Source of the DNA: Paramacrobiotus metropolitanus | Lineage: Eukaryota; Tardigrada; Eutardigrada; Parachela; Macrobiotidae | Reading direction: 5' to 3' | DNA length: 64,000 bases | Assembly: GCF_019649055.1 (NCBI RefSeq) | Contig: NW_026570223.1 | Span: forward strand, 2,356,001 to 2,420,000 | Part shown: one piece after another, positions 2,507 to 18,344 of the stretch | How the letters are laid out: every line of letters starts with the position of its first letter | How positions within the stretch are numbered: position 1 is the stretch's first letter | Notes under the pieces: generated by a model | The model's input: only the letters and a program-made list of their open reading frames with translations | Told to the model about the DNA's origin: nothing | Database searches by the model: none | Made by a program: the position numbers and the translations under genes

Positions 2507-3873
2507 TTTATTCTTTAACTTAAACAGTTATTTGTTGTTGAGTTGTGCATTTTTATCACTTGGCAGCTTCTCGGCTTGAGTGAGTGAGTTGACCTAATCC
2601 TGTGTTGCGATCTCCCAGTTTAGTAACGGCTGGATTTGCAGATGATGTTGCTTTTCACCTTCGAGATTTGTACCCGAATGTGGAGTTTGTGGTGGTTTTA
2701 TTTTTTTATGGATTTTAAGCTTTGTGCATATGGTGATTGTGCTAACATTAACCATTTTAAATGAAGATTGAATCTGTCCATTGGTAATTCCGTAATTTGG
2801 AATACGTTTTTGTACCGAACTTGTACGCTTATTACGGTAACTCTCGCTTTTTGTTTTCCTGGACTACGTAAATATTATACAGAAAGAAACTCGTTAAGAA
2901 AATAATAGCATACCATTTAACTGCATTAATTAATGCAGTTAAATGGTATGCTATTATTTTCTTAACGAGTTTCTTTCTGTATAATATAGTCACAGATTCA
3001 AATAGTCCTCCCATTAGTGCAAATGGTCAAAACTTCTCGTTTTGTTTTCACCCGAAGGTATACTTCTATCGAAAGGTTCTGAAGGTGTTAGAATTTAGGC
3101 TATTGATAAATCCTTATAAATGATTTCTGCGGTGTACGGTGTACGCGCGAATAACTTGCAGTTCATGTCTGTTTCGAGTCTCGACAGTCGCAAGGTTCGA
3201 AACATTCATGTACACGGAAATTCATCGTCAGATCGGCGCTACAGGCTTTCGGCACACAGCGCGTCACAGCGGACAGAAGAGTGGCAAACCGCACAGAGTG
3301 GCGGTTCAACTTGTGACTTGGGTGTTGTGACTGTTGTCTGAGCCGAAGTTTGAGCTCGTATTTTGTCTACAATAATCAAGTTTAGTTCCAAGAACTTCGT
3401 GCAATTGTTGATATTTCATACCTCCGTGGCTCCGTTAGACTGTTAATAGCACATTCTGATCATTCAACCGAATTAATTTTACGATTTAATAAGAAGAGCA
3501 ATACAAGATTACTGTGCCTTCGTTTTGTAATTTTTCATACCTTACTCTAGTTTTTACATACTTATGTGACAGTCGTCGACCTGCTTTCATCGCCATCTTT
3601 GGTTAGTGGAACTCGCGTAAGATGGTGCTAAGTGCTAACGTTGTAAAAAGTAAAAACGGCGCGAAACTCATAGCAGCACGTCTGAGTCTGGCGCTTTCAG
3701 AGCAGCATTGTTAAAAAGTTATATGGTTACAAAATGATCGGTTGCTTTCGGTTCGATTTGTGAACAGTCATAATAGATCATGAATTCGTGTGTGCGCTAG
3801 GGAGCGGAATCTTAAGTAGTGTTATCCCGGAATTTGATGTGAAAACATAAAAAGATCCTACAAGTTCAATAAT
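2507..3873. other. Intergenic region
   Basis: Separates the palmitoyltransferase stop codon from the first coding exon of nuclear receptor A. No gene is supported. Short open frames around 3120-3340 have no recognisable domain and no splice support. The region contains the 116-bp palindrome described separately and should include the 3' UTR of the upstream gene and the promoter and 5' UTR of the receptor. Confidence 0.6.
2872..2987. repeat. Perfect 116-bp palindrome
   Basis: Bases 2872-2929 and 2930-2987 are exact reverse complements of each other over 58 bp with no spacer; the symmetry centre is TTAA|TTAA (2926-2933). I checked it base by base; symmetry breaks at 2871/2988. It is AT-rich and lies between two genes. 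It could be a hairpin-type mobile element remnant, a fold-back duplication, or an assembly artefact. Confidence 0.95.
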
Positions 3874-6800
3874 ATGGAAAACAACAACAGCAACCTCACT
3901 GATTACGATACATCTACGATCAGTTCAAGAAATTCTCCACCACCAAGCCGAAGAAGTAAGTTATGCATTTGCATCACTTGGGAAAGATACTTACTAAATT
4001 TTAAAGATACTGCTTAACGACAACATCATCAGTCTGACGGCTCTCGAATCTCGATGCTAAGTAGTACATATATGTTACGCGCAATGCGTGTATTCGGACC
4101 AGATGTTGTTCTACAGTAGTTTTTTTAAGAAATAATTTTTGTTTGGTTGGTTTTTTATCTATCTGACATTGCCGATAGGCGATAGCGATTCAAATTACAG
4201 CATAAAGTTTGTCGACTGTAACTTCTCAATGAATTTCGCACTTCCGGTCTGACGAGTCTGTGGTCTAGCGGGTGTGCGAAGCCGTGATTGGAGGGTGGGA
4301 CTGTCTGGCCCAGCCTCTTTTAGTATTGTTTACATTGTTAAAAAATTTTAATAATAATGCCTGATAATTTTCTCGTTTTCTACATTGCGGCTTGAACTTT
4401 AAAGGCACTACACTTTCTTTCTAAATATTTTTGTAAACCCACTGTGACATTGTGATGGGCATTTTTCCGCTGATTTCAGCAGAATTTTCCCTTGAAACTT
4501 TCTGATCTTGATCCACGTGTACATGTATCTAATGATGGTTAGACTACTGTTGTGTGTGGGAAAACGATAACACAGCAGGATGCATCCAAAACAGCAGCAG
4601 CGTGCTCCCTGACGTTGTGCTGGCTTTTATGCTTACGCCAGACAGAAAAAAGACACCTGTTTGCTCTTGTACATGTGCTCCAAACATCCGTAGCCGAATA
4701 AAGAACATTTTCACCGTAAATCCAGTCGGCTGGTATGACTGGAGTCACCGGACAGAGATCGATTTAATTTCGGCTGATGGCTGAATGACGACTGAGCGTC
4801 AGGCATATTCGGCGCTGGCTGTGCCAAGATCACTTTTTTGTGCTGCGTCGCTCTGATTTTGCGCTACTTACCTTCACCTCCCGCAGCGTGATTACAACTG
4901 GATGGATCCGTGTCTCTGCTGTTTATAAACGTTTTCGGTGTTGAAGTTAATCGGGTTTATCCAACGCGTCAGCCTGCATTTTTCATCTATCTGCATGCCG
5001 CTGCGATTATTGTTTTTGTGGATACCTGTCGATCAGTCATCGATATCAGCTGGTTCGGCCTTTGGAGATTCTTGTGAACAGGAACGTGGTAAACGTTGCC
5101 TGGATTTAATCGTATTCTCTGGATTAATGAGTGGCGCCGGTAAGGATTCATCGTGTCTAATTTGCCATCATAATATTTTACCACATTTTTTTTTTGTTTT
5201 GCATTTCGTAAGCCGCGAAGGTTTTCAAAACGTTTGTGATTTTATTATAGTGCTTGAATATGTGATATTTTCGAAATGCTTTTTTGAAGAGATTTATTTG
5301 AGCTAGAGCTGCATTTAGGCGATTGAAATAGTTTGTTGATTATCCTGTGTTGGCTTTTCTATGCAAGTTTTTTAATTTATTGTTTGTTCATTTTTTTGTC
5401 AACTGCCATTAATAAATAGTTTTAAGCATTACAAAAACTATTAAGTAGTTGATAATTGTTTTATGTCTATGCTGGCGCTTATGATGTTTCGGACCGTCCT
5501 ACTACTCGTACAACTTTCTCTTGAGAGTGTTTGAATTTTGCCAGTCAGCCAGTTCAATTTTAACTGTGACCTTGAGTCGGGACATTGCGCTGTCGATAAA
5601 ACGCTGTCGATAACACACTGACAGTACAGTTTACAGTTAGTGCGCTAACTATCAGTCTTTGTTTGCGTTTTGTCTAGCCGGAAATTAGTTACAGCAGTAC
5701 TTTGAGGAATATTTTGACAACTGACGGAATAACAAAGAGCGTCCCATTCCCATGTATTGATACAGTGTAGTTAGACAGCTTTAAAGCTGGACTCGTTAAT
5801 AGCTCGGTATATAAATTGTGCAAATATATCGATAATCGATGCACCTTCCGTGCAGTGCGATTACACGATTTACATCGTTCCTTAATGCTTGTCAATTTGA
5901 TCAGGTTGCCGGTCCCGTATAATACGATGGATTTAGGCCCTTTGGATCCGGTTTCTGGGTCAACCTCCTCGTCGGAGCTGAAGAGTCCTACTTCCAGCGA
6001 TTCAGCATCCAAACTTCCGGGTGCTGCTCCCTCTTCGCAGTATTCTTCGGCGGCTAATGACAATAAAGCCGGAAGTGCCACGTTGATCGCGCGCGGGAAA
6101 CGCGGTAATCTGTCGCATCTCAGTGAATCGGATCGCCGCTCAGAAGTGTCATACCGCAGTGAGCCCAGTCTGGCCATTTCCGATGCAGCACGCAGTTCTA
6201 AGTTTAAAGTGGTCAAGTTGGGCGACAAGACACCGTATGTGCGAGGACGGTTTACCTGCTTCGACTTCCATGATTTACCGGTGAAGGATCTGATTAGATC
6301 AGACTCATCGCACACTCCGCGGATACAGACGCCGACGATTGCCACAGAAGGGCCCAGTGGGACGTTGACCGCCAGTGCGTCTTTTACGTCGAGTGGTAAT
6401 AACACAGCCGACAGTTCTGCATCTGTCAGTGTTCAAGGTAAAAATAAAAATTAATGCGTATGATTTCACTGCATAAAGTTTTTAAATAAAAAACTGGGTA
6501 ATTTTCGAATAAAAACTAGATGCTTTTTGGATATTGTTATTTGTTACGTGTTTACAGACAAAGGTACACAACGTTGTGACAGCAACATTGTCGTCCTTTT
6601 CGTTAGTTTTAACCCGCTGTACGTGCATTATCTACTTTGAAATACTGTTTATTAAAGCGTTATTTTTCGTACTTAAAATATTGTTGGTTGTTACTAGTTA
6701 CTTATTACATTGTCGTCCTTTTCGTTAGTTTTAACCCGCTGTACGTGCATTATCTACTTTTAAATACTTACTGTTTATTAAAGCGTTATTTTTCGTACTT

Positions 6801-9800
6801 AAAATATTGTTGGTTGTTACTAATTTGACACTTTTGGGTAAATTTCCTGTATTACTAATCATACGATTACTTTAATAGATATTCTCGTTTTAAATCAACA
6901 TCTAATTGTACAGGAAGGTCGACAATCATATTCGCATCTTTGGTCAAATTCACGAAATTGTTTATTAGATGCGCAGTGGTTGATTTGGAAGTTGAATTGT
7001 AAAATGAAATGCTACCGGGGAACTTGACAGTTAGATTTCGGATTACATAACATACCCATTCAAGTGTCGTGTTCTCCGTTTATGACATTTGCCGGTCGTT
7101 CTCTTAATTGACTCGATATATTGATTTTACTCGGCGAAAACATATAATTTTGTCATGAAAAATATTGACACTGTTCTTTTGCAGTCGATGCCGGCAGTCA
7201 GGCTCCCGCTTCAACTAGTGCCTCAGCATCCAGCAGCCGAACTGGTACGCTGATCCGTTCTCCTCTCTCCGTCCAAACGCTCCATCACAAATCTCCCTCG
7301 TCTCGCTCACCTGTTCCGCCCAATACCCCGACATCCCCGAACGTGGATTTCTCCGCTTCACTGGACGGCGCTAGCACTCCGGACCGATTTATCCCCTCTC
7401 CGGCGCCGACCACGCCCATCCCGGGCCACGCAGCTCCTGACCAGCTCATCCAGGACAGCTTAGCGAAGAAGAACCCTACCCCTTACTCGGAAAGTGTGTC
7501 CCGTGTCGCCTCGATGCCGCCGTCCGGCACCATGACGCCGGGGCGGAAAATCTCCGGCGCTACTGGTCCGGATCCCTCGAAACTCCTCCGTTTAAAAGGG
7601 GAGTCGTTTTTCGCCGAAATGATCGATCGTGTCTGGGAGGTGTCGCCCGGAAAACCGGTGGGCGGGGGATTTGACCGAATAGAGGCGAAAATCCAGCAGT
7701 GTATGTCGCTGGTCACCGAGCACGTGCTGTTAGCGGTACGGTCGGACTTGGAGGACCTGAACAAACAAGTGAAAGTACTACGGGAGCGCGCGGCATCGCT
7801 GGAGTGTGAGAATCAGGTGTTGAAGATGGAGAATACACTGCTGCGGAATGTAGTTAATAACTCGACGCAGCCGGATATCACGCCCAGTCGAAGCCGAATG
7901 AAATAAGAATCTGACAGATTCTGACACGAATTTTACCATGACAGATCATTAGAATTTAAATGTTAGATTGCGTTTTTGATCGTTTTGTGTGCCTTTTGTT
8001 TCCGGAAAATGTTGTAAAACAGCAAATCAAAATTCGATGCTGATGAATACGCAGCAAAAGAAGCGAATAAATGGCTGAATATACTTGTAAGACATTTTTC
8101 ATCAACTTGGTAAAGTTAGTGCAGGGTTGTAAAGAATCGAAACGTGATGCTGTACCTCATCGACGATCCAGCTTTTACCAGTGCATTTTGGCTTCGAATT
8201 TAAGTATACGAAACTTGTTAGCTGTTGTAATTTCAGCTTCTGGAGAAAAGCCGTTGTGCACCGTTTGTGGAGATGTCGCGACCGGCTACCATTATGGGTG
8301 CATGTCTTGCGAAGGATGCAAAGTACGCACCGCTTTATTCTTACGACAAATGCACTGGTTGACGTATTTTGACTTGTTTGGGTTACCAGGGATTTTTTCG
8401 ACGTTCTACGCAAAAGGACCTCCAGTACACATGCCGAGGATCGAGCGACTGTGTTATTGATAAGAAAACGCGCAATCGGTGTCCACAGTGCCGTTACGCG
8501 AAATGTGTTCAACAGGGAATGACCACTGAAAGTGAATATACTTTTCTATGCTTTTGTTGCCTCTATTGTGAGATAATTAGGTTATATATGCGCTAGTGCG
8601 GTATGCGCTGTACATTTATCTTTTGAATAGAACGTTGGTTTTGCGACTGCATTTGTCTTTGTAGTAATTATACAGTTTTTCGGTTTCTTTGTGTTAATCT
8701 ATGTCTTCCCTTTTTAGTGGTCCGCAACGACCACCCGCGCACCGTCGTGCGTCAACTATCCTCCGACGAGAACCGCGAACAACGACAAAGAGAAATCATG
8801 CATCATCGGACGATCTTGGAAGCGGTGGAAAGCAAGCTAAATGACCAGGAACGCCAGCTGGTTGGTAACATCGTCGAAGCGGCTCGGCAATTTCTCAGTC
8901 CAAGCTCGTCTCCAAACGGACAAGTGGTTCGTAATATACAATATTGCTTACAAATTAAATAGCGGTATTATTGTCATAGTAGTTGCATTTGTAAATGTTT
9001 TGTCCCATTCAGTACCATTTCCTGATTTTCTTTTCGCATTTACTGAAACATTAATTTGGGCTAAACCGAGGTTTTTTATTAGAGCGTTCAAGAGTATATT
9101 CATCAGATTAAAACAGAAAAGGGTGGAATGATGCACGTTAACCAAATGGGAAAAGTGGTGCAGTTTTTGGACCTGATGGCGCCGGCCATTGCCAAGCTGA
9201 CGCATTTCGCCAGAAAATTGCCGGGCTTCAACGAGGTTCGTATTATCTGTAATTCAGTAACTGATAGAGAAATTTTTTTTGCTACTGTCCTGTACAGTGA
9301 CCTTTACTGCAGTTAATGCCGGGTGATCATGGTGTATTGCTGAAAGCCTCCTGCGTGGAAATTATGTTGTTTCGTACCGCTCTGCGCTACGACCGGGCCA
9401 GCGGCACGTTGGTTCTCAATAACGGCTTCCGTCTGTCCATGGCCCAATTGTCTAATGCAGCGTATCTGGAATCGGAAAGTCTTTTGCGTCCGATTTTGAA
9501 TTTGTCAGCCAGCTTGGCTAATCTTACGCTGGATGATGTGGAAGTTGCGCTGTTTCTAGCTGTGCTGGTATTAAGCGGTACGAAAGGTCACCGGTGCTGA
9601 ACGTCTCTAAAAAGCTTTAAACGAAAGATTTTGACTTGTAGCTTCATTCTGATGGCATTTCACAATATTTTAGCCGATCTGTTTGTCTTGTGCGTTGTTC
9701 TGGTTTTTCTTGTTTTGACGTGGTTTGTGAATTTCCAGAGCGCCCTGGAACGATCGCGAGTGTCGACATGGAAGTAAAAGAAGAGCTGTTGTGGAGCTGC

Positions 9801-10004
9801 TTGCGCAAACACATTGCTGAGCAACATCCATTCGACGCTAACCGTTTTGCGCAGATGATGATGCGGGCGCTGGAACTGCGCACCATTTGCTCGCAGAACG
9901 CCGAAAAGATCCTCTACATCAAGCTGGACGGAAGCAGTGGCTTGCTGGAAATGCTCGTGGCTACCATGTTCGATAACTGCACTGTCCAGATTGTTAACAA
10001 TTAA
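3874..10004 (+). CDS. Nuclear receptor A, thyroid-hormone-receptor-like (NR1A-type)
   Basis: Seven exons chain exactly: 3874-3955, 8237-8322, 8400-8531, 8718-8933, 9083-9235, 9313-9577, 9739-10004; 399 residues. After a short Asn/Ser-rich A/B region, a two-zinc DNA-binding domain starts near residue 35 ([15 protein letters not shown], then P-box CEGCKGFFRRS, then CPQCRYAKC) with the zinc cysteines present. A hinge (MVRNDH...) and a complete ligand-binding domain follow, including the signature [19 protein letters not shown] and [15 protein letters not shown]. Exon phases and positions match nuclear receptor B immediately downstream, so the two arose by tandem duplication. As a transcription factor it should bind DNA in the nucleus, probably with RXR. 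Helix 12 reads [12 protein letters not shown]: the AF-2 glutamate of TR (FLEVF) is replaced by Thr, and the helix-11 His that contacts T3 is Asn. Exon 1 is assigned by phase and by analogy with gene B; its intron encloses a TSC22 gene. Confidence 0.87.
5927..7906 (+). CDS. TSC22-domain leucine-zipper protein (bunched-like)
   Basis: Two coding exons, 5927-6437 and 7185-7906, joined in phase 1, give 410 residues. The start at 5927 (MDLGPLD) is the last upstream ATG before conserved sequence; earlier in-frame ATGs exist from 5816. A conserved long-isoform motif [25 protein letters not shown]-like block (near residue 85) matches the N-terminal motif of TSC22D/bunched long forms. The C terminus has the TSC box ([20 protein letters not shown]) followed by a short leucine zipper ([20 protein letters not shown]). 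TSC22 proteins dimerise through this zipper and act in growth control and transcription. The whole unit, with an AATAAA near 8065, lies inside the first intron of nuclear receptor A on the same strand. An alternative is that the exon at 3874-3955 belongs to this gene, but its phase fits the receptor exon better. Confidence 0.9.
6585..6829. repeat. Tandem duplication, two ~122-bp copies
   Basis: Copy one begins at 6585 and copy two at 6707, both starting ACATTGTCGTCCTTTTCG and ending near GTTGGTTGTTACTA. They differ by a few substitutions and a 4-base insertion (TTAC) in copy two. The repeat lies in the intron of the TSC22 gene and has no coding meaning. Confidence 0.9.
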
Positions 10005-11229
10005 ACTGCACCTACCGATTATTTGCTAGCAGTTTTTTTATTCGTTGTTCTCATTGTTTTAATTGAATTTTAAAACAGATTATTCGCACATGGATAAATA
10101 AGTTGATAACTCACTTGTCAATGACTGCAAGATTTATAATCTGGCGAATTCTGCCGGGTTTATTGTTAGGGAATCGCAGTTTTCTTTAGTTTATGCCGAT
10201 GCTGATCGTATTGTTGTGTTACAAGTGTTTGTTTTTATCACGCTGTGGATTAGTATGATCTGAATCTGATACTATGTAAGTATTTCAAGCAATAAATCTG
10301 AAATTTCTGGTCTTGTTGGACAGTTGGAGAAAGTGCTAAAGCCAAGCTGAGTCAGTAGAATAAACAATTCACACTATTTTTCATGACAGTAGTAATCTGA
10401 CCGCCACTTTAAAAAATGGTTTTAAGCCCGTAATTAAATTAAACTTCGTAGGTAGAGATAGACCGTAAGCGAAACGAACCGAAGATTTTAGACATTTGGA
10501 TGAAATAATATGGGAAGTGAACTGCACAGTGCACAGTGGTTTTGACTTTGCCGGTCCGGTAGAGGAATCAATGCAGACTACATCCCGCCATAACATTTTT
10601 TTAGGCAATATGAATACTTCGTAAACATATTTTAATAATATTATTATAAGGGATCGTTAACTGAATCAGGATCGTGTTCTATGAATATCAACGGTCATAT
10701 TCAGCCAGTTAAGGTCATCAGCTCGAGTCTGCAGTCGCCAAAATACCTGTTGAGTCACTCATTGGTTCGGAAAATTCACTGACCGGGTGGAAGCGTTTAA
10801 TCAGATGTGCCAATCTGCATATCATTGGCGTACGGGCCAATTGTTCTGGCTCAGTTCTGTTGTTTTCGTCTGGCTCTCTGGGTGGATTCGTACGCAACGC
10901 GTACGTACGAAATCCCTCCGAAATCTCAGCCAAGTATCGGCCTTAAGAGGCTGATCTGTTGCCTGATAATAAAAAGAACCCGGATTCTTTCGCTCCGCAC
11001 TCAGCGTGCACTGCTAGTTGCCACTGGCATGAAAAGGCAAATGTTTCAGGTGAAGTCCTGTTGGCTGTTACTATGCCAGTCTGGCAACTGTCCTCAACAG
11101 ATTGTGCGGCTGGCGTTGTTCTTAATTTATCTTATAACATTATTATCGTAATTTATTATACCGAAAGTGATAATTAATTTAAATGCCCATCCGTCCCGTC
11201 GCCTGTTCGAATCTGATCCATGCCAGAAA
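10005..11229. other. Intergenic region between the two receptor genes
   Basis: Contains the 3' UTR of receptor A with a candidate polyadenylation signal AATAAA at about 10291, and the presumed promoter of receptor B. Open frames at 10381-10608 (-), 10718-10933 (-) and 10807-11177 (+) show no domain, codon bias or splice structure that I can support. Confidence 0.55.
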
Positions 11230-14200
11230 ATGAGCAGTTCGTCACTGAAGAAAAAACGAAGTAAGTCCGCTATGAAAAACTAAAAATGTATCCCAAAAGC
11301 TTAAATTCTGAAAGTGGCGAAAAGATATAGTTAATTTTACGCTATTACTAATGCCGGTGAGTCAAGAAAATGCAGATTGTGTTTTGACACTTTAGGCTGT
11401 CACTTCGCAGAAATTGCATATTTTTGTCTGTGTCCCTATGCTATCAGTTGCGCTGTCTGCTAGTGCAGTTCTGCCCTGCGGCCAGCGAAATTAGGACACT
11501 GTCCAGAAGAATCAAATGGCTCAGACGTCGTTTAAGCAGCCAGAGGGTGATCTTCACTTGGTGGTAAACACTTTTGTTCCGAGTCTTTGGCGCTGCGCTC
11601 AGAGCGCCTTGTCTGTTCCTTCGGTTTCTCGGAGGTGTTTTACAGCCATGCTGGGTGAGCAAATAGTATACCTTTTCATATAAGCGATGAGTTTAAGAAA
11701 TCGCAGTTGGATTTCGTGCATAATTCGCCAGAATGTGCGGTAGTGATTTGCTAAATTTTATTCTTCCAGAATTGCGTCATAGCATTTTAAGAAGGTTGCG
11801 TAATCAGTGGGGCAGGCTGCAGAAAACGGATGCGAAACGTTGCTTTACGGATCAGGACTTTGTTTTAACATAAAAGATGATAAAAAAGTGTATGTTGCTT
11901 GACCTTTACAATAACCTGTTGATTCCGCTTGTGGCGATCAGTAACAATTCTGCAGTTTTGAAAATGGTATTGGCTGAATAACGTAAATAACTGCTGAGAA
12001 GCTACTGTCGGCAATAGCATTGCATTGTTTTTGAATATTCCCATTTTGAGCGTTTTATTTTTAATTGTTCGTTATTTTATATAGAAGTATATTTAGTTCG
12101 TAATCTTTGTAAGAATATTTATATCCATTTTTCCAACTGGACGTTCCAGGGTTTCTCATCGACATATGCTCGATAATGCATAGGACATCTGTAAACAAAG
12201 TTGAATTCTGACGAATAAGATAACTGATTGTATATAAATATGACGGAAACTTCTAGTAAACATTTCTGTTTCTGATGATGTAAAGAATAGAATTAGGGCT
12301 ATTTAAAGTTATTGTTATTTCTATTACTGATGGGAGTTAAAGACTAATAAGATCGCACTGCGCAGACGAGATAAGGCACGTCGTGCTCTGCGCGATTAAC
12401 AGCGGATCCGTTGATTGTTGGATCTCTGCTTTGTGGGTGCAGCAGCGTTTCTGCTGTCGTTGTTCTGACAGCGAGTTCGCAGGAACTTTTTGTAAATGTT
12501 GTTCATCCGCCTAAAATCTGACAGAAGCGCAGCACTTCTAAAAAAAGAATACGTATTTTTCTCCAATGCCGGCGTAATGTTGTAATTATCTGATTCTTAA
12601 TATTTAAATTGTTATGATAAGATACTTCGTATTTTTGTGATTAATTTTAGCATTCCCCGTGGGCGATTTTTTATGGCCTGGCAGACTGTTGTCTAATAAA
12701 CCGCTTACCGAATTGTTAGCACATTTTTGGTTATCCGCAGGTGGACCGTATATTCCCAGCTACATGGATCTGAGCAATGGGCCGGAACCGTGCGCCGTTT
12801 GCGGAGATGCTGCCACCGGATATCATTACCGCTGCATGACATGTGAAGGCTGCAAAGTAAAAATTCGGCGATACTGCCATATCTGGCACGTTCATTCACA
12901 TCGTCGATAAGCTGGACATTGGTCTCTTTTAGGGCTTCTTTCGTCGTACGACCCAAAAGAACCTGAAATACATGTGTAAGGACAGTGGCCAGTGCCCCGT
13001 TGATAAGCAATCACGCAATCAGTGTCCTCAGTGCCGCTATCAGAAGTGCCTGCAACAAGGCATGGCTATCGATTGTACGTATTGTACAATGTCCTGAGCG
13101 ACTCCTAGTACACACTTGAACTACAGTTTCTTTGACTTTCGGAAATTTGGTTGATTCCTGTTGTGTTCCGGTCAAAATAGAAAATTTTCCATATTAATTC
13201 AGTTTTTTTTCAAATTCAGCTTGCCTTTGGACTTTTAGTTTAATAAAATTCTGTTTTTCTGTTCTGTTAAATTTTTGCTTTAAGTAAGTATTTGTAAATT
13301 TTTCGGTACTACTGTTGTTTCGGTTGGCACACTGCAACGTACCGTACATCGTAATGGCGATATTAATGTGATTTTTCGAAATCTTGTTAGTGGTTTTAAG
13401 CGAAAATCAGCGAGTTGCCAAACGCCAGTTGATTGAAGAAAACCGGGAACGACGCGAATTGGAGTTGTTGCGCAGTAAACTTGTACAGGAAGCCACTGAG
13501 AAGATTCTCACCGATGCAGATCGTGCTCTGATTCGGGAAATCACGGAAGCGTATCGTCAAGCCCTGATGCCGCATTATGTGACTCAAATAACGGTACGAG
13601 TTCTTACAATCTTACTGTGATGAAAATTTCAAATTAATCGACCAATTCCATTTTAATCCAACCAGAACTCTGTTTGAACTGTGCTGCTTATGCAGTGTAT
13701 TAAATAGTTTAAATCTGCTCGTAGTTTGCAAACACAAATTGCAACGACATGTACAATCTGAAATTTGATGAATTCTGCGACTTGTGTTTTGAAAATCTCC
13801 CTTTTCGCTGCTGCAACTGTTTAATTGTTTAACGTTGCTAAAAACTATTGCTTGCGAATAATTATCTATTTTTGTTTCGACATTACAGCATCCTTATGGA
13901 CATTTGGAGTCGTTATATGGAAACGGGAAGGTTACGGTAGCGCAAAATGGTATGCCGCTGGGCATGGTGAACGGATACCCACGCAACGGAAATGTAGTGC
14001 CGGGAAAGAGCGGTCAGTTATTAGACTTGATGGCACCGGCTATTCGACGCTTGGAATCATTTTCTTTAAAAATTCCTGGATTTTCGGAGGTAAATTGCAG
14101 ACACGTGTGGTGGTGCATCAGTAAATTGTGCGGCTGTGAAGGGTTTTTTTATAACGTTTGAGGCTTTGTAGTTGACGCCAGCTGATCGACAGACACTTTT

Positions 14201-15033
14201 GAAATCATCCTGTGTGGAGATGATGCTGTTTCGTACTGCGCTGCGTTTTGACCGCAACTGTGGGTCAATTATTCTGAATAACGGATTTCAACTGAATTCG
14301 TACTGGCTCGCCAGTAATCACGGTACTTACGATGCGCTCCTGCGTCCTCTGTATAATTTGGGACTGAGTTTGGCGGTGTTGTTCTTGGACGAAGTTGAAG
14401 TGGCTCTACTTTTGGGATTGTTGCTGTTAAGCGGTAAGTATCGATCGCTATATTAGAACTGCATTTAAAAATAATTCTAAGTATAATTATTTCGATGGAT
14501 TTGACTAATTTTGTGATATGTGATGATGTTTATTCTATAGTTGTACTAGTACTCTGTAGCGTGCATAAATTTACGATGTCAACATGATTTGATGAATATG
14601 TATTATTCAGTATAACTCTTTGGCATTATTGGCGTCTTCACTATAAAGAGATTTTTTACTGTTTTGCCCATTAGGACGTCCAGGAGTGCATGCCGCTGCC
14701 GATTTGGAGCGTCAGGAAGAGATTATGTTGACCGCTTTGCGGCGCTACCTTGCTGAGAAATCTCCCAAAGACATGGAACGCTTCACTCGCCTTCTGATGA
14801 AAGTGTTGGAGCTCAGGACGATAAGCGCACAAAATGCTGACAAGATTATGTTTGCCAAATTGGAATCCCTAACGGATGTGCCGGCCATGCTGTTCGCCAC
14901 AATGTTTGAAGACACTGAAACCGAGCCGAAAATCGCCGTGGCTCCATACCCGCACACGGCTGTTTATCATGGTATCATGCCGCATCCGTCCTATCCCAGC
15001 AGTGGATTGCCGCCGTTCGCTACCTTATTCTAA
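11230..15033 (+). CDS. THR: Nuclear receptor B, thyroid hormone receptor orthologue
   Basis: Seven exons chain exactly: 11230-11260, 12741-12856, 12933-13074, 13391-13593, 13889-14089, 14172-14433, 14675-15033; 437 residues. The stretch [11 protein letters not shown] just before the DNA-binding domain corresponds to the SGYIPSYLDK of vertebrate TRs, which is diagnostic. The DNA-binding domain (residues 28 to about 95) has [19 protein letters not shown] and CPQCRYQKC, and the hinge [20 protein letters not shown] matches TR closely. The ligand-binding domain is complete ([36 protein letters not shown]). Arginines equivalent to ligand-contacting Arg228, Arg262 and Arg266 of TR alpha are kept, but helix 11 has Asn in place of the T3-contacting His, and helix 12 reads MLFATMFED with Thr in place of the AF-2 Glu. 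A C-terminal extension of about 35 residues follows helix 12. AATAAA lies at about 15286. Confidence 0.93.
11261..12740 (+). other. First intron of nuclear receptor B
   Basis: Starts GTAAGT directly after the 31-base first coding exon and ends TTATCCGCAG. It is the counterpart of the 4.3-kb first intron of receptor A. I see no embedded gene here; an open frame at 11444-11662 (-) is not supported. Confidence 0.75.
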
Positions 15034-15572
15034 CTGGTCGCACAATGATAGTTGAAATGAAGTTGTTGTGGTTTAAACCTTTTAGCTCTTTTAATTCGTT
15101 TGTTTGAATGTTTTCTGGGATTGGATCTGTGACTGAAGTTGCCGAGGGTTCTTTCTAAATAATGGTTGTGATGTTTTACATTCTGGGGTTTTTATTTATT
15201 TGTTTCGGTCATTAATAATTAAAACGTTACGTAAATTGACCTGATTAAAACTGTAAAATGTATAAAAATATGTTATAAACAAATAATAAATAAACCTGCT
15301 CGTGCATCATTTTGCATTTTGCTACCGGTTTTATTCCAAAGCCGTTTTCACAGTTCATTATGTACTTATCGTTAATACAAGTAAAAAGCATAGTTCGATA
15401 GTTATTCATTCAGTTTCCACTGCAGGAACTTGTATCCATACGAAAAAACTGAGTTCCGTAGACATATTCAGAGAAGCAAAATAAATTTCTTAACATGAAG
15501 CGCCCACATGACCTCCCTAAATAATTTCAGAAAGCCCGAATTTAAAATCTTTGTCTGGCCACAGCTAACAGG
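15034..15572. other. Convergent 3' intergenic spacer
   Basis: Lies between the stop codons of receptor B (+) and TFIIE beta (-). It carries receptor B's polyadenylation signal near 15286 and AT-rich sequence. No gene is supported. Confidence 0.7.
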
Positions 15573-17632: not shown

Positions 17633-17862
17633 TCTTAGAAGGGCGGACGCCTGCGACAGGAGAACACTGCTGATTCTATAAATGAAATTTAAATATGAAT
17701 TTCTGAATTTACTGAAGATACTGAAGAAATAAAAATCTGCCGATGACGGGACTCGAACCCGTGCCAGCTGCGTCTGTAGCCGTCCGTCTTACCACTGATC
17801 TACACCGGCTGCATTATTAAATCTTCTTAAGATTTTAGCGCACTGTGCGACTGCCTATCATC
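17633..17862 (-). repeat. 230-bp direct repeat, copy 1, with tRNA-like head
   Basis: Identical, as far as I can read, to 18115-18344. On the minus strand it contains a 72-nt tRNA-like segment (17738-17809): a 7-bp acceptor stem (GCCGGTG with CATCGGC and discriminator A), an A-box-like TAGATCAGTGG and a perfect B box GGTTCGAGTCC with a good T stem (ACGGG/CCCGT). The D stem and anticodon stem do not pair, so it is not a convincing functional tRNA. It may be a tRNA-derived SINE or a tRNA pseudogene. Confidence 0.85.
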
Positions 17863-18114: not shown

Positions 18115-18344
18115 TCTTAGAAGGGCGGACGCCTGCGACAGGAGAACACTGCTGATTCTATAAATGAAATTTAAATATGAATTTCTGAATTTACTGAAGA
18201 TACTGAAGAAATAAAAATCTGCCGATGACGGGACTCGAACCCGTGCCAGCTGCGTCTGTAGCCGTCCGTCTTACCACTGATCTACACCGGCTGCATTATT
18301 AAATCTTCTTAAGATTTTAGCGCACTGTGCGACTGCCTATCATC
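18115..18344 (-). repeat. 230-bp direct repeat, copy 2, with tRNA-like head
   Basis: Second copy, offset by 482 bp from the first and in the same orientation; its tRNA-like segment is at 18220-18291. The identity over the whole unit indicates a recent duplication. The 252-bp spacer between the copies is not repeated. Confidence 0.85.

Follow-up and report, generated by a model that had tools for sequence, protein, structure and literature searches.

Invertebrate thyroid hormone receptors (TRs) were reported by Wu et al. in 2007 from Lottia, Schmidtea, Schistosoma, and Daphnia pulex, and no tardigrade is among the species named in the accessible part of that paper (PMC2045677). The same part gives the consensus of a TR N-terminal signature, (G/P)YIPSY(M/L)XXXGPE(D/E), and describes four conserved TR splice junctions, JP1–JP4, of which JP3, the one in the ligand-binding domain (LBD), is group specific. 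In the accessible text of a 2009 Daphnia survey, the TR-like receptor HR11 was tentatively given a group of its own (PMC2774871). According to the available passages of two 2021 reviews, ecdysozoans have lost TR, a statement that one of the two qualifies with "probably" (PMC7827873, PMC8222990). In the available text of a 2026 paper, ecdysozoan THR genes are placed in a supplementary tree whose species are not visible there (PMC13195034), so that a tardigrade TR may already stand in it. No description of a tardigrade TR was found among the titles and abstract openings listed in searches of the open-access literature.

The preliminary description of this locus had drawn its interest from the absence of TR from Drosophila and C. 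elegans. This does not equal absence from ecdysozoans, since Wu et al. had described a TR of Daphnia pulex in 2007 (accessible part of PMC2045677). The two genes analyzed here are members of a known family, and an ecdysozoan TR has precedent.

Two nuclear receptor genes in tandem

Both genes lie on the plus strand of the window, the whole 64-kb stretch of tardigrade DNA that was analyzed (GC content 0.396–0.494 per 4 kb). Gene A (3874–10004, beginning with its ATG at 3874) encodes 400 amino acids, and gene B (11230–15033, ending with the last base of its stop codon) encodes 437 amino acids. Each is an intact nuclear receptor gene with seven coding exons and a single clean frame after splicing, and GT–AG sites were present at all 12 introns. 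The Pfam zf-C4 domain scored 101.9 and 103.7 bits and the Hormone_recep domain 64.9 and 61.9 bits for A and B, respectively, all well over the cut-offs. These results bear out the tandem receptor pair that had been described at 3874–15033, with both genes at their coordinates, clean spliced frames, and both domains.

In gene A, the predicted exon 1 (3874..3955; 27 codons plus 1 base, donor GAAGTAAGT) is followed by the first zinc finger (exon 2, 8237..8322) and by the P-box helix and second zinc finger (exon 3, 8390..8531), both placed by splicing and the zf-C4 match. The hinge with a TR-like ENREQR A-box (exon 4, 8718..8926) was placed by splicing, and LBD helix 3 (exon 5, 9083..9235) and helices 4–9 (exon 6, 9313..9577) by splicing and the LBD search; helices 10–12 and the stop codon occupy exon 7 (9739..10004), which carries the activation helix LVATMF. 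In gene B, the predicted exon 1 (11230..11260; 10 codons plus 1 base) was the sole candidate listed in 10005–12700. The TR N-terminal signature PYIPSYM (motif from the accessible part of PMC2045677) and the first zinc finger lie in exon 2 (12741..12856). The second zinc finger (exon 3, 12933..13074) and the T-box, A-box, and hinge (exon 4, 13391..13593) were placed by splicing and the search with the DNA-binding domain (DBD), and LBD helix 3 (exon 5, 13889..14089) and helices 4–9 (exon 6, 14172..14433) by splicing and the LBD search. Exon 7 (14675..15033) holds helices 10–12 with the activation helix LFATMF, a C-terminal extension, and the stop codon.

An identical exon plan had been claimed for the two genes. 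The claim held for the intron phases (1,0,1,0,0,1 in both genes, 6/6 in agreement) and for four of the six positions, which fall in the same column of the protein alignment: CEGCK|GFF in the DBD, the end of the DBD, "GF-S/N-E|L" at helix 3/4, and "LS-G/E-RPG". For introns 1 and 4, the positions are offset by some columns within badly aligned stretches. The first AATAAA after gene A is at 10291, and an AATAAA follows gene B at 15285. A predicted start exon, a stop codon, and a polyA-like signal of its own for each gene argue that A and B are two genes. Prokaryotic-style scans of 9900–11300 found three promoters against 3.6 expected and two terminators against 1.1 expected, and these were given no weight.

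Candidates for exon 1 of gene A were single exons with a phase-1 donor matching at least 7/9 of the consensus. Three were listed in 3001–5900, and no start-exon candidate was listed in 7907–8200. The exon at 3874..3955 was chosen because its donor is identical to that of gene B exon 1, and the two others, which have a common donor at 5139, were set aside. Intron 1 of gene A also contains a TSC22-type gene on the plus strand, whose coding segments (5927–6437 and 7185–7906) join into one clean frame. Its TSC22 match reached 28.2 bits against a Pfam cut-off of 30, and its name is therefore tentative. Gene A exon 1 was rejected as a coding extension of this nested gene, as its phase-1 donor and the phase-2 acceptor before 5905 do not fit in frame. 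As an alternative to the predicted first exon of gene A, 3874..3955 may be a non-coding leader exon of the TSC22-type gene.

The two receptor proteins are identical at 191 of 387 aligned amino acids, far from chance. Identity between A and B at codon positions 1, 2, and 3 was 0.597, 0.682, and 0.380, respectively; shuffled third positions gave a mean of 0.25 and a maximum of 0.33. At fourfold sites with shared first two bases, 18 of 78 were identical, which is about chance, and the Nei–Gojobori dS was undefined, that is, saturated. The random fourfold sites, together with the conserved first and second codon positions, indicate an old duplication in which both proteins are still constrained. 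This conservation also bears on the idea that gene A is a decaying pseudogene. Its faster DBD (end branch of 0.79 in the DBD tree versus 0.11 for B) and its loss of the N-terminal signature would fit decay, but 400 codons without a stop, six GT–AG introns, intact zinc cysteines and P-box, and constraint at codon positions 1 and 2 despite random fourfold sites make decay hardly credible.

The genome (169,799,020 bases in 533 contigs) was searched with both proteins, giving 45 matches with B and 43 with A. Beyond A and B, these were other receptor loci, and LBD matches outside the A/B locus had only 25–33% identity. No third TR was seen among these matches; such searches score the best candidates only, and a missing match does not equal absence. 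The 63 zf-C4 exon matches listed in the genome were grouped by us into approximately 45 genes. A deiodinase search of the genome gave no match, but its control likewise gave no signal, so absence is not implied. HPII-type catalases and Glyco_transf_20 (TPS-type) genes are present in the genome, and in two other tardigrades the catalase loci have been described as bacterial in origin (available text of PMC5531438). A search for SAHS-like lipocalins yielded one good lipocalin match, which resembled an ordinary FABP.

Placement of the two genes among nuclear receptors

The P-box CEGCKGFFRR, Met16, and the lack of a His-Pro insert are common to A and B. Gene B also carries the TR N-terminal signature (PYIPSYM...GPE) with an unchanged length to the first Cys, although GPE stands one residue later than in the consensus and lacks the second acid. 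In gene A, this signature is lost: exon 2 is 30 bases shorter than that of B and reads TSGEKPLC. T-box position 8, which we counted from AIDLVLSE, is Glu in gene B, whereas the gene A T-box, TTEMVRND, has Asp there in place of the Glu mark; Asp is described as the jawed-vertebrate letter in the accessible part of PMC2045677. The LBD intron E|L before helix 4 is present in A and B, but the five further receptors read at this site (EcR, HR3-like, E75-like, ERR-like, and an EcR-like gene) have no break there. The break comes later in EcR (after ALLK) and in the HR3-like gene (after LLKS). Four junctions are common to A and B, and E|L may correspond to JP3, whose exact column is given in a published figure.

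In a sequence search of solved structures, the gene B DBD scored 140.7 bits with TR chain 2nll_B and 139.3 bits with TR chain 3m9e_A, compared with 83.4 bits for RAR-beta and 84.7 bits for RAR-gamma. The gene A DBD plus hinge scored 115 with TR chains, 106 with RXR-alpha, and 104 with RAR-gamma. When the LBD was searched alone, TRs ranked first for both proteins (for B, 95 against 85 with the highest-scoring RAR; for A, 89 against 85). The best whole-chain PDB matches of both A and B were RARs, because the RAR chains hold both domains, whereas the listed TR chains hold one. DBD identity of B to human TR-alpha/TR-beta was 64–65/96, and that of A was 55/96 to TR-beta and 48/93 to RAR-beta. The LBDs of A and B were identical at 103/196 positions. 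LBD identity to TR-beta was 63/194 for A and 63/193 for B; to RAR-beta, 53/199 and 51/192; and to LXR-beta, 53/179 and 49/178.

Trees of 15 rows were built with TR, RAR, PPAR, REV-ERB, ROR, VDR, EcR, LXR, FXR, RXR, and NR4A references, a set that holds no invertebrate TR or RAR and of which seven sequences were entered by hand. The concatenated DBD and LBD tree grouped A with B (100/99) and both with the TRs (98/94); the forced topologies of B with TR excluding A (p-AU 7.5e-5) and of A and B with RAR (0.0056) were rejected. The LBD-only tree gave the same groups (A+B 100/100; A+B+TR 85/79). In the DBD-only tree, A and B were joined at 75/97, and A+B+TR was not a clade in the best tree, yet was tolerated (p-AU 0.16), as was B with TR excluding A (p 0.13). 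After 21 receptor rows from the same genome were added to the DBD tree, A+B+TR appeared with weak support (64/74), and no RAR grouping was found among those 21 rows.

The vertebrate RAR–TR neighborhood provides a different reading, in which gene A is a RAR (NR1B) beside a TR, a remnant of that ancestral arrangement. The RAR-like stretch VRND behind the zinc fingers, the letters YHYG, and the closeness of the RAR-beta and TR-beta identities of its DBD agree with a RAR, as do the whole-chain PDB matches, which are equally true of gene B. However, joining A to RAR was rejected by the concatenation (p-AU 8e-48), by the LBD (p 0.0002), and, less strongly, by the DBD (p 0.035). The LBD letters LFRTALR, NNGF, QNA, and ATMF and four exact intron positions are shared by A and B, and the hinge of A has the TR-type ENREQR. 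A RAR origin of gene A is thus very improbable.

The DBD score, the TR-specific signature, the TR-type A-box, and the tree support the assignment of gene B as an orthologue of TR (NR1A), in agreement with the preliminary description, which had called it a real TR. That both genes are of TR type was upheld by the concatenated tree, in which neither protein fell outside the NR1A clade, the outcome named beforehand as speaking against the idea. It was qualified for gene A by the missing signature and T-box mark and by the DBD-alone grouping. Because gene A lacks the N-terminal signature and one T-box mark, it was filed as a TR-derived paralogue, and the sequence comparisons support an ancient tandem paralogue of B that is TR-derived rather than a classical TR.

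Hormone-site and activation-helix residues

LBD residues were numbered on TR-beta. R282, R316, R320, N331, and H435 are hormone-site residues according to the accessible part of PMC2275733. R316, R320, and N331, as well as K306, are unchanged in A and B, and position 282 is Arg in B and Lys in A. The changes A317T, H435N, and E457T are found in both proteins, and K288 is replaced by Arg in A and by Leu in B; the H435N letter is also that of Drosophila EcR. We take K288 and E457 to be the charge-clamp residues. The activation helices, LVATMF in A and LFATMF in B, both miss the acidic charge-clamp residue. Since this acid is gone and the hormone-contact His is changed in both proteins, classical T3-switched activation by A or B would be unlikely. 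That the two are ordinary T3-responsive receptors agrees with the unchanged R316, R320, and N331 of both and the R282 of B, but, given H435N, A317T, and E457T in both, we consider it highly unlikely.

A317T, H435N, and ATMF are common to A and B and are not found in human TRs. These shared letters weigh against gene A being an older panarthropod receptor, for instance of the NR1M type known from Daphnia as HR10, in which case B would be the counterpart of Daphnia HR11. The random fourfold sites, which mark the duplication as old, would agree with such an origin, and Daphnia does have a RAR-like HR10 and a TR-like HR11; in the accessible table of the same survey, however, the two genes are on separate scaffolds, 17 and 193, if the column is taken as scaffold (PMC2774871). 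We regard an HR10-type origin of gene A as rather unlikely.

As a control for this helix change, the C-terminal ends of further receptors in the genome were read (14 regions in all), with receptor names assigned from their letters. Eight of the 14 clearly keep the acid (HNF4, two ERR-like, SVP-like, EcR, an EcR-like gene, E75-like, and HR3-like, the helix of the last, LHRELF, being read by eye), and one (L054, VLSDM at the frame end) probably keeps it. The remaining five (L041, L042, L047, L048, and L049) are without it, indicating that A and B are not the only receptors of this genome to have lost it. Both RXR-like genes are among these five, with FLYKLI and FLTRLL at the place where human RXR has FLMEML. 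A TR–RXR pair in this animal would thus be without a classical activation helix on both sides.

Proposed role and comparison with known receptors

Taken together, we consider it probable that the locus holds two TR-type (NR1A) genes, of which B kept the TR DBD and signature and A is an old, constrained duplicate, and that both are mainly repressors or T3-insensitive receptors. With their P-box unchanged, the two proteins would recognize half sites of the AGGTCA type, and their partner would most likely be one of the genome's two RXR/USP-like proteins. Given the altered charge-clamp residues of both proteins and the Asn that replaces the T3-contact His, they would act mainly as repressors or independently of T3, and gene A may be specialized to other sites or partners. 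A clear tardigrade TR and the reported Daphnia TR together indicate that TR survived into the panarthropod lineage and that its loss came later, more than once. A more tentative extension, which we hold to be possible but doubtful, is that TR was retained in tardigrades when other moulting lineages had lost it, underwent tandem duplication at an early date, and gave rise to a hormone-insensitive pair that partners acid-less RXRs, a TR–RXR module without the classical ligand switch.

The interest of the pair lies in its phyletic position, its old tandem duplication, and the absence of classical switch residues from both copies, to which a putative functional meaning is given here. Two adjacent copies whose hormone and coactivator residues are altered make it possible to ask what role TR had prior to, or in the absence of, thyroid hormone, and to do so in an animal that has an ecdysone receptor.

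Compared with the invertebrate TRs of Wu et al., gene B likewise has the P-box, PYIPSYM, Met16, no His-Pro insert, the T-box, and the A-box, whereas the signature is missing from gene A (accessible part of PMC2045677). In the same text, flatworm TRs have independent lineage duplications, with which the A/B pair may be compared, and the Schistosoma TRs keep the activation-helix acid (YLHELF, YFHELF), which A and B lack. Daphnia pulex HR11 (NR1N) and HR10 (NR1M) are likewise ecdysozoan TR-like and RAR-like NR1 receptors, but are not in tandem according to the accessible table (PMC2774871). Human TR-alpha and TR-beta (NR1A1, NR1A2) have the same domain plan, the DBD similarity to B given above, and arginines 316 and 320 in common with the tardigrade proteins, whereas their LBDs are identical to A or B at just 62–63 of 193–197 positions and differ at residues 317, 435, 457, and 288.

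Sequence features around and within gene A

Upstream of gene A, the TR-derived tandem paralogue of gene B, a perfect palindrome was found at window positions 2872-2987, with two 58-base arms that are 100% complementary and no spacer between them. The genome search matched no second copy of this palindrome, which could be a genuine hairpin or a fold-back of the assembly. Intron 1 of gene A contains a nested TSC22/bunched-type gene on the same strand (5927-6437 and 7185-7906), whose Pfam score was slightly below the cut-off. An internal duplication of approximately 120 bases, with near-identical copies, was also observed in the intron of this TSC22-type gene (6585-6825). Further along the window, two identical 230-base copies form a direct repeat (17633-17862 and 18115-18344), and each copy includes a minus-strand gene for tRNA-Leu (CAG).

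Catalases of the genome

Two loci of the same genome, L057 and L058 (contigs C5 and C154), correspond to large-subunit HPII-type catalases. The catalase matches at both loci were split over several pieces and frames, and the relatives of solved structure for L057 were KatE/HPII.

Divergent and RXR/USP-like receptors

One more divergent receptor (L008 and L050; C4:1259785-1264434) ends its LBD with LLEEIW, and its DBD clustered with EcR/LXR/FXR in the DBD tree (81/82). The divergent DBDs of loci L020, L025, L028, and L030 together formed one starred own-genome group in this tree (97/95), which suggests that receptors expanded within the lineage. Two RXR/USP-like genes were present (L041 and L042; contigs C155 and C130). 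Human RXR has an acid in the core of its activation helix, whereas the corresponding cores of L041 and L042, FLYKLI and FLTRLL, lack this acid.
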